The notes beneath the pieces are model-generated. The model made no database searches. It saw nothing but the letters and a program-made list of their open reading frames with translations, and was not told the origin of the DNA. The translations under genes and the position numbers were made by a program. This document shows, piece by piece, positions 21,494-24,336 of a DNA stretch of 64,000 nt (positions within the stretch are counted from its first letter, which is position 1; each line of letters opens with the position of its first letter). Source of the stretch: Myxococcales bacterium (lineage in GTDB: Bacteria; Myxococcota_A; Polyangia; Polyangiales; Polyangiaceae); the NCBI GenBank assembly GCA_025355005.1, contig JANXLV010000054.1, forward strand, positions 1 through 64,000, written 5' to 3'.

Positions 21494-22873
21494 CTACTCC
21501 GACGCGATGTGGGGGTTCAGCTGCGTTGCCTTGGCTTTGAGGTCCTTGGCCTTCGGTGCGTCGCCTTGCTTCTCTGCGATCTCCCCGGCGACCCAGTAGA
21601 GCTTCGCGTTCACGAGCGGCATCGCGAGCGCCTTGTCGATCGATTTTTTGGCCTCCGCGACGAGGCCGTTCGTCAGCTGGGCGTCTGCCAGCGCCACGTA
21701 GCTCGTGCTGTTGGGCCGCAGCTCCACGTTCTTCTTCAGGAGCTCCAGGGCCTTCTTCGGCTCGTGGGTCTTCATGTAGAACTCGGAGGCGTGCCAGTAC
21801 ATCGCCTCGGGGTACTTCTTCACGAGCACCTCGTAGCCGGCGTGCGCCTTCTCCGCGAGCGCTCGCGCCTCTTCCTTCTTGCCGCCTAGCTCGTACAGCT
21901 CGGAGAGCGCCTGCGCGAACTCTGGATCCTCCGAGAGCTTCACGACCTCCTCGTAGAGCTTCGTGGCCTCGGCGTCCTTGCCCATCATGTGCAGCGTCTC
22001 TGCGAGGTGCTCCGTGCCTGCGACGTACGTGGGCATCCGCGCGATGGCCTCGCGGAAGAACGCGCACGCTTCGTCCAGCCGTCCCACCTGTACGCGCTGG
22101 ATCCCTCGCTGCAGATCCAGATGCGCGACGCCGAGCGGGCCCGTGTCGGAGACAAGATCCTCCGCGGCCTCGTACGCCGCGTCGATGTCGTCCTGCGCGC
22201 CGCCGGTGTCCTGCAGCAGCTGCGCCTCTCGCATCCAGGTCCCGGTCGACGGATAGTCGCGGCGCGCCTTCTTGATGGCTGCGATCGCCGGCTCGTACTT
22301 GCCGTCATTCCAGTCGAGCTCCGTCGCGACGGCTGCGATTCGCTCGGGCGCACCTCCCAGCTTCCGCGCGCGCTCGAGATCCGCGCGCGCCTCCTTGAAG
22401 CGATGCAAGCTCTGCTCCTGCTCTGCACGCGACAGCCAACCATCGGGCAGCTCGGGCGACAGCTTCGTGAGCTCCGTTGCCTGGTCGATGCCGAGCGCGA
22501 GCTCATCGAGATCGCCACGGTAGCGACCGCGCGTGTGGTGCGAGCCGCTCAGCATCGTCAGGTTCGAAGCGTTGGTCGGGCTCTTCTTGACCAGCCGCTC
22601 GAGCTCCTTGATGCGCGCGTCGAGGTTGCCGAGATAGATGTCCGCGCCCGTTGTGGAGAGCTCCGCTTGGGTCTTGGGCCTGCGTCGCAGCCGTCGCGCA
22701 CCACCGAGATCGGCGACGCTCGCATCGACCGCGCGCGCGCTGCCTCCGTCGCTGCCTCCGTCGTTCATGGCGGCATCGGGAGCGGTCGTCGTGTCGGTCG
22801 TGGAGCTCTTGCAAGAGCCCCCGCTCATGAGGAGCAAGACCCCCACGGTACCCGAACGGACCAGCTCCCCCAT
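21494..22873 (-). CDS. TPR-repeat lipoprotein
   Basis: 459 residues from ATG 22873; ATG 22894 is seven codons upstream. The signal has lipobox SGGSC. A short Asp/Gly/Ser linker and an Arg-rich patch (GGARRLRRRPKT) lead into an almost continuous helical repeat array (about residues 75-450): ARIKELERLVKKSPTNASN, WLSRAEQEQSLHRFKEARAD, GTEHLAETLHMMGKDAEATK, ALELLKKNVELRPNS and others, spaced by about 34-36 residues, which is the TPR period. It is probably a protein-interaction scaffold at the inner face of the outer membrane. It converges with the L,D-transpeptidase gene (21 nt between stops) and is divergent from the DUF4331 pair. Confidence 0.82.
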   Translation of the reverse strand: MGELVRSGTVGVLLLMSGGSCKSSTTDTTTAPDAAMNDGGSDGGSARAVDASVADLGGARRLRRRPKTQAELSTTGADIYLGNLDARIKELERLVKKSPTNASNLTMLSGSHHTRGRYRGDLDELALGIDQATELTKLSPELPDGWLSRAEQEQSLHRFKEARADLERARKLGGAPERIAAVATELDWNDGKYEPAIAAIKKARRDYPSTGTWMREAQLLQDTGGAQDDIDAAYEAAEDLVSDTGPLGVAHLDLQRGIQRVQVGRLDEACAFFREAIARMPTYVAGTEHLAETLHMMGKDAEATKLYEEVVKLSEDPEFAQALSELYELGGKKEEARALAEKAHAGYEVLVKKYPEAMYWHASEFYMKTHEPKKALELLKKNVELRPNSTSYVALADAQLTNGLVAEAKKSIDKALAMPLVNAKLYWVAGEIAEKQGDAPKAKDLKAKATQLNPHIASE

Positions 22874-23020
22874 CCCACACGCGATTGGACGCATCGGGTG
22901 GATCTACACGATCCCAGAGCCGGATCGAGGACTGCGCACATTTGACCACTGGGCCGCCATAATGTCCGTGAATGTAGGTGCAGGTGCGGTGGCATCGGTG
23001 TTGCGTGAGTGGTCTTCATC

Positions 23021-23689
23021 ATGAAGCTCAAGGCCCTCGCAGTTGTCCTTCCGGTGCTGGCGCTCCTCTCCTTCTCGTCGACCGACAGCCAGGCGTCGGA
23101 CCATGTGGACGGCCTCAAGACGGCGCTCGACAACGCGGCGGACCTCACGGACCTCTACACGTTCGTCAGCCCCAAGGACCCGACCAAGCTCGTGATGGTC
23201 CTCAATGTCCACGGCATCGCCTCCTCGATGTCGCGCTTCTCGAACGCGGTCGACTACAAGTTCCGCATTCGCCCCATCGACGACGCGACGAAGCTCGTCC
23301 CCGCCGCCGACGCGCGCCGCGAGCAGAGCATGGTGTGCAGCTTCTCCGGCGGCATCCCCTTCATCGACGCGAACCAGCACGCGACGTGCACGTTCAACTT
23401 CGGCGCGACGAAGCAGGTCGTGCGGTTCGACACCCGCAGCGACAGGTACTCCGCCGGCGGCGACGGCGCAGCAGGCGGCGTGCGCGTGTTCGCGGGCGTG
23501 CGCTCCGACACCTGGTTCCTCGATGGCGGCAAGACCGTCAAGTACGTCTACTCGAACGAGCCCGTCTCGCAGGCCGCAGGTTCGAACCTCCTCGAAGGAC
23601 AGAACGTCCTCAGCATCGTGGTCGAGGTCGACAAGCAGAAGCTTGCTGGACCGCTCCTCGCCATCACCGCCCAGACGGTTCGTAAGTGA
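23021..23689 (+). CDS. DUF4331-family exported protein, N-terminal half of family fold
   Basis: 222 residues from ATG 23021; GTG 23009 is an alternative. Signal peptide 1-26 (SSTDSQA). The mature protein begins with the DUF4331 signature: SDHVDGL, then DLTDLYTFVSPKDPTKLVMV, beta strands (YKFRIRPIDD, CTFNFGATKQVVRFDTRSDR) and the mid-family motif NVLSIVVEVDKQKLAG, and stops there. Full-length DUF4331 proteins continue for another 150-250 residues with a second half that ends in a GGRxxNDDxxDV motif. That second half appears to be encoded by the next gene, whose frame overlaps this stop (GTGA at 23686-23689). Function of the family is unknown. A periplasmic or secreted location is likely. Confidence 0.85.
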   Translation: MKLKALAVVLPVLALLSFSSTDSQASDHVDGLKTALDNAADLTDLYTFVSPKDPTKLVMVLNVHGIASSMSRFSNAVDYKFRIRPIDDATKLVPAADARREQSMVCSFSGGIPFIDANQHATCTFNFGATKQVVRFDTRSDRYSAGGDGAAGGVRVFAGVRSDTWFLDGGKTVKYVYSNEPVSQAAGSNLLEGQNVLSIVVEVDKQKLAGPLLAITAQTVRK

Positions 23690-23700
23690 AAGCCAAGACC

Positions 23701-24336
23701 ATGAAGACCATCAAAGCCATCGCGCTCACCTTCGCCTTCGCCTCCGCTTCCCTCGTCTTCGGCTGCGCCCAGCAGGGTGAGTCCGCCGAGACCCAGCCCC
23801 AGACCGCGAGCGAAGATCTCGTGATGTTCCCCGGCAGCGTCGATCACGTCGGCATCGTGGAGTCCACGACGATGATGCTCGTGTCGGGCGCATCGGACTT
23901 CGCCACTGTCCTCGACTCGTACAACCAGGACGATCCCTTCGCGCTCAAGACGGGAAACTACCAGGCGGCGTTCGCGAAGAACCTCCGCAAGTTCGACGTC
24001 CGCGACGGCAAGAGTGAGTGGACCCCCGACCAGGTCACCTCCTTCTCGACACGCATGGCGAGCGGCAATTACCAGGTGATCGACACGTCGATGCCGTGCG
24101 ACTACACGAACCCCCACACGTACCTCGAGATCGAGCGCGCGCAGCTCACCGGCAAGCGTCACCAGACCTGCGGCGGCCGCATGCCGAACGAAGACGCGAT
24201 GGACGTCACGCTGAACTTCCTCATCCGCGGCCCCGCCGCGAACATCACGGGCCCCGGCGCGCTGCGCGACGGCGTGGACCAGGCGACCGAGAAGAGCTCC
24301 AACACCTTCCCGTACCTCGCTGACCTCAACGAGTAA
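23701..24336 (+). CDS. DUF4331-like lipoprotein, C-terminal half of family fold
   Basis: 211 residues from ATG 23701; GTG 23686 overlaps the upstream stop by 4 nt and is also possible. It has its own lipoprotein signal (SLVFGC, Cys22). The mature part carries late-DUF4331 features: VDHVGIVESTTMMLVSGASD, YNQDDPFALKTGNYQAAF, and the near-terminal GGRMPNEDAMDVTLNFLIRG followed by DGVDQATEKSSNTFPYLADL, matching the typical family ending. It lacks the N-terminal DLYTF signature, which is on the upstream gene. The two proteins could assemble into one DUF4331 fold, with this one tethering the pair to the membrane; that is inference. Confidence 0.8.
   Translation: MKTIKAIALTFAFASASLVFGCAQQGESAETQPQTASEDLVMFPGSVDHVGIVESTTMMLVSGASDFATVLDSYNQDDPFALKTGNYQAAFAKNLRKFDVRDGKSEWTPDQVTSFSTRMASGNYQVIDTSMPCDYTNPHTYLEIERAQLTGKRHQTCGGRMPNEDAMDVTLNFLIRGPAANITGPGALRDGVDQATEKSSNTFPYLADLNE

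Follow-up and report, generated by a model that had tools for sequence, protein, structure and literature searches.

The window (the whole 64,000-nucleotide stretch analyzed here) carries two consecutive genes on the plus strand, gene A (23021..23689, 222 aa) followed by gene B (23701..24336, 211 aa), the frame of B being different from that of A. Protein A is a Sec-exported N-terminal half of DUF4331 with the signal MKLKALAVVLPVLALLSFSSTDSQA|SDH and a predicted mature N-terminus SDHVDG, i.e., an X-X-His end, and protein B is a predicted lipoprotein with the signal MKTIKAIALTFAFASASLVFG|C, a 26-residue linker, and the C-terminal half of DUF4331 (CGGRMPNEDAMD ... FPYL). The lipobox of B, LVFGC, was recognized by pattern, and its cysteine is what is expected of a bacterial lipoprotein signal peptide; the two export routes proposed in a preliminary description of this DNA are both supported by the sequence. 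A divergent gene for a TPR-repeat protein, assigned with Pfam TPR models, lies at 21494..22894 on the minus strand and is a recurrent neighbor of DUF4331 genes.

The start of A is likely ATG 23021, 12 bases past the 23009 quoted earlier. The preliminary description also allowed B to begin at a GTG at 23686, overlapping A by GTGA, and this codon (23686-23688) does overlap the A stop codon (TGA 23687-23689); the extension to be gained by that start (23686..23700, plus strand) is, however, the less likely choice. ATG 23701 is most likely the start of B, because the B homologues align at MKT/MNT and because the spacing from the A stop to the B start, which ranges from -1 to 71 nt in 46 pairs, has a median of 11 nt, equal to the value in the window.

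The two proteins had been described as one DUF4331 fold divided over two chains, and the profile alignment agrees, since neither A nor B spans the full domain of PF14224 (421 positions; Pfam gathering cut-off 27 bits). Protein A passes the cut-off (66.9 bits, E 2.6e-18) with two stretches, the best at profile positions 1-69 and the second at 157-217, whereas B matches positions 359-419 and taken alone misses it (23.8 bits, E 3.2e-5). The whole domain is therefore not found in one chain, and A (1-217) and B (359-419) jointly reach both of its ends. We call B a DUF4331 half not by its own score but because orthologous B halves score far higher on a full-length model, the better-conserved homologues reaching 1e-16 or better; its relation to the family, which the preliminary description had left open to refutation, is further seen in single-chain relatives where A and B are contiguous. 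No NCBIfam family matched A or B. Identity to split homologues is 62-67% for A (L009, L010) and 53-55% for B (L008-L010). The source genome also encodes two full-length DUF4331 proteins (L001 and L002), so split and whole forms coexist in it. Our literature search found no paper naming DUF4331, PF14224 or IPR025566.

Within the order, the B query had matches in 21 of 183 genomes, with a separate A-like frame before B in most loci and a single chain in L020, and a scan of genome contigs with B gave one relative, L006, in a Polyangiaceae MAG whose genes likewise run TPR-A-B. Profiles built from 17 B and 17 A proteins matched in 58 (B) and 73 (A) of 282 sampled Myxococcota genomes, full-length proteins counted in. 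From the search matches, 60 regions with partial-match loci were hand-picked, fetched and, together with the window, classed as 52 split loci, three single-chain loci (L116, L118, and L130), and six that are incomplete because one half runs into a contig edge. The survey of pair conservation suggested earlier thus yielded 52 A-B pairs of neighboring genes, from 45 of the 282 genomes, counting L135, where A is only partly in frame, and L128, where only the start of B precedes a contig edge. Gene order is A then B on the same strand in all 52, and B has a lipobox at every split locus (46 by pattern, six by eye). Such recurrence across Myxococcota argues that the arrangement is a lasting one and no error: the split DUF4331 is a widespread and old variant in this phylum and not a local oddity. 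The arrangement was called unusual in the preliminary description, which holds for the family in its Pfam definition but not within the sampled Myxococcota, where it is common. Further loci gave extra split pairs (L161, L162, and L164), contig-edge cases (L154, L155, L158, and L163), one damaged locus (L157), the L020 single chain again (L160), and one without a usable match (L156). At L164 (G123:C496, 2547-6189), the split pair is immediately preceded by a full-length DUF4331 whose sequence is distributed among several frames, by frameshift or assembly error.

Beyond Myxococcota the survey consisted of plasmid records; tblastn against 72,556 of them returned seven records for A and six for B, and five of the seven were fetched. 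On Rhizobium, Sinorhizobium, Bradyrhizobium, and Streptomyces plasmids the A and B matches directly follow one another within a single frame, and the Nostoc plasmid chain is also in one frame. The same contiguity is seen in the single chains L020, L116, L118, L130, and L149-L152, unlike the window pair. A scan of viral contigs with the full-length alignment found no relative. By eye, a loop of about 10-25 residues joins the A and B parts in the single-chain relatives, and in the split pairs a stop codon, a lipoprotein signal, and a linker stand in place of this loop, the stretch from Cys to domain in B being 25-389 aa long (median 60, n=51). On a model of 28 full-length sequences the better-conserved pairs cover positions 2-245 (A) and 262-431 (B) with no large gap, which places the family-scale break at about 245-262. 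The break takes the place of a single loop, bounded by the final strand of A (LAITAQT) and the opening motif of B ([IV]D[RH]xG).

A tree was built from 70 rows, leaving out L128, L135, L145, and 19 of the 31 full-length rows, and its root was set on the full-length proteins, not inferred. Twelve full-length proteins of the SSHREAP type form one side (100/99), the Nostoc chain comes next, and the remaining 57 rows are 49 split pairs and eight single chains. Together with the window pair and L102, these eight single chains make up a group of 10 rows (100/99); the rows nearest to the window pair are L102, L106, and the single chains L020, L116, L118, L130, and L149-L152. A single clade for all splits was rejected (p-AU 0.0003) and a single clade for the eight single chains was not (p 0.336), both tests having been chosen post hoc with the tree already seen; taken together, they allow two changes, i.e., one split and one re-fusion, and also more than two. 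The nesting of the eight single chains among the splits suggests splitting and then re-fusion, and repeated splitting is a possible course instead.

A second regularity concerns the N-terminus. Among the window and the loci L001-L058 and L089-L153, 85 of 91 chains, of all DUF4331 types read, have X-X-His as their predicted mature N-terminus: 45/51 split, 31/31 full-length, 5/5 exported single chains, and 4/4 cytosolic chains, with SDH at 23096-23104 in the window. The His is lost in six of the 51 split A proteins. SSH is found mostly in full-length forms and ADH or SDH in split forms. Please note that the cleavage position was assigned from the His itself or from the alignment column in which it stands and that the residue before it is the independent part of this observation; in all 87 exported chains, that residue (-1) is A, G or S. 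The Cys-to-domain linker of B, in contrast, varies widely in length. Cysteine is found at +1 in none of the 51 A proteins. The cytosolic plasmid chains L149-L152, which have no signal peptide, begin with M-[SA]-D-H; Met is removed before a small second residue, which would leave the same X-X-His end. This end across DUF4331 chains, cytosolic relatives included, is new here, and the pattern is that expected if the N-terminus had to be free. NH2-X-X-His is the ATCUN (copper/nickel) motif, in which the His stands at position 3 of a free N-terminus, and with its predicted cleavage before SDH, A has this arrangement and may be considered a candidate ATCUN-type metal site. A lipid on A would block the X-X-His end.

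Our preferred reading, to which we give a probability of roughly 0.7, is that A and B each make up half of a single DUF4331 unit and would assemble outside the cytoplasm into a heterodimer in which A has a free N-terminus and B provides a lipid anchor. The adjacent genes are probably translationally coupled, and Sec would export the two chains separately, with assembly taking place after export. Signal peptidase I would cut A to leave the free X-X-His end (Ser-Asp-His in the window), and lipoprotein signal peptidase would cut B, which would then be lipidated and carry the C-terminal half on its flexible linker. Such a lipidated B and its linker would attach the assembled unit to a membrane, which is most likely the outer membrane. 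In our view, the split may have been kept because the N-terminus of this family must stay free and cannot carry a lipid, whereas an N-terminus in the middle of the chain can.

Operon neighbors co-occur without always binding each other, a caveat to the heterodimer, and DUF4331 could instead consist of two independent domains that have undergone fission, A being free in the periplasm and B a membrane lipoprotein, the two merely neighbors. We consider this unlikely. It is favored by the partly plausible, beta-rich model that A gave alone (pTM 0.57, pLDDT 57.5, mostly strands, the last of them, 213-221, at the chain end) and by one case of B without A: L159 (G197:C73, 3337-5829) has a B core and a TPR gene, without A and without a recognizable lipobox, and speaks against strict obligacy of the pairing. 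A kinase/response-regulator gene occupies the expected A position at this locus. Against independent domains, both chains are present in all 52 pairs (A being partial in L135 and B represented by its start in L128), single chains reappear within the split clade, and near-invariant charged residues are shared out between A and B. Residues conserved at 85% or more over 90 joined rows include His3, Asp16, Asp19, Gly134, and Asn170 in A and, in joint numbering, Gly310, Arg311, Asp319, and Phe354-Pro355 in B; that charged residues are fixed in A as well as in B is consistent with a common site without proving one. The predicted model of B (pLDDT 31) was not usable. A fold search of the A model against the PDB gave 0 matches at E <= 0.001 (best 0.048), as a model of this low quality would lead one to expect; searched by sequence, solved structures gave none for the full-length paralogue or A and chance-level matches only for B (best OppA, E 0.045). 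The joint fold is therefore argued from sequence.

It is very improbable that A and B are subfunctionalized paralogues with different jobs instead of halves; the score of B below the Pfam cut-off could be taken that way, but A aligns to one end of the model and B to the other, with no overlap, and single-chain proteins contain the two in direct succession. A frameshift, a sequencing error or a decaying gene, which the adjacent open reading frames in different frames (B vs A in the window) might bring to mind, is hardly credible for 52 loci in 45 genomes that each time have a B signal peptide and linker absent from the single-chain relatives read, and whose A-B offsets use all three frames, so that there is no shared shift site. 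A programmed frameshift was rejected on the same offsets.

Beyond the heterodimer, a broader and tentative proposal, which we regard as possible but doubtful, is that DUF4331 would be a metal or ligand binder acting through its free N-terminal amine and His3, with C-terminal-half residues making up the rest of the site. The chain would then have been broken mid-fold in Myxococcota for an internal lipid anchor that leaves this site unblocked, the halves reassembling outside the cytoplasm, with some lineages later re-fused and some of these anchored at the C-terminus instead. The split shows where the DUF4331 fold can be cut and which residues stay fixed on both chains, and the X-X-His end is retained both where signal peptidase generates it and where Met loss does. 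The pair may also serve as an example of a fold divided so that a membrane anchor could be added within the chain, probably followed by re-fusion.

The single-chain relatives differ in their anchoring. Single-chain PF14224 proteins of the SSHREAP type resemble the split pair in family by profile, in the position of X-X-His, and in a TPR neighbor (14 of the 31 full-length loci retrieved as loci and examined, short flanks being read); they differ in being one longer chain, in having no lipobox, and in forming their own clade. C-terminal membrane segments occur in two of the four myxococcal single chains: L116 has a hydrophobic extension, and the C-terminus of L020 (G151:C210) has CGCG, a hydrophobic stretch, and RRRR. 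PMC11980579 describes MYXO-CTERM as a motif with an invariant Cys, a helix, and an Arg-rich end, with predicted lipidation and surface display and sorted by myxosortase, and the ending of L020 shows the tripartite form described there. The likeness is by eye only, NCBIfam at E 0.05 giving no MYXO-CTERM match in L020. Unlike the MYXO-CTERM proteins of that paper, the split pairs would rely on standard lipoprotein processing, with the anchor placed on an internal N-terminus. An anchor is not universal, because L118 and L130 have no membrane anchor that we could see and the exported full-length DUF4331 proteins lack one as well; that single-chain relatives are anchored by other means is suggestive only.

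As to the gene neighborhood, BLAST clusters place a TPR gene beside 38 of 55 split or single-chain loci, 36 times downstream on the same strand and twice upstream and divergent, the latter only in the window and L102. By profile, it is found at 41 of the 61 loci and at all five plasmid single-chain loci, and Pfam models support the TPR assignment for the window, Nostoc, and Sinorhizobium. In L149 (Sinorhizobium) and L150 (Bradyrhizobium) a peroxidase gene precedes the DUF4331 gene, and TPR, cytochrome, and molybdopterin genes come after it; this neighborhood (peroxidase, TPR, cytochrome c, 2Fe-2S, and molybdopterin) is likely a redox operon. Both chains extend into an extra C-terminal part, and L150 is annotated as an SRPBCC family protein. 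Within the fetched regions, ECF sigma genes occur at eight and ChrR-like cupin genes at seven of the 61 loci (Pfam assignments), too few to build on. In L089, L111, L121, and L136, an ECF sigma gene and then a ChrR-like cupin (anti-sigma) gene lie close upstream of A, which suggests stress-controlled expression in these lineages.
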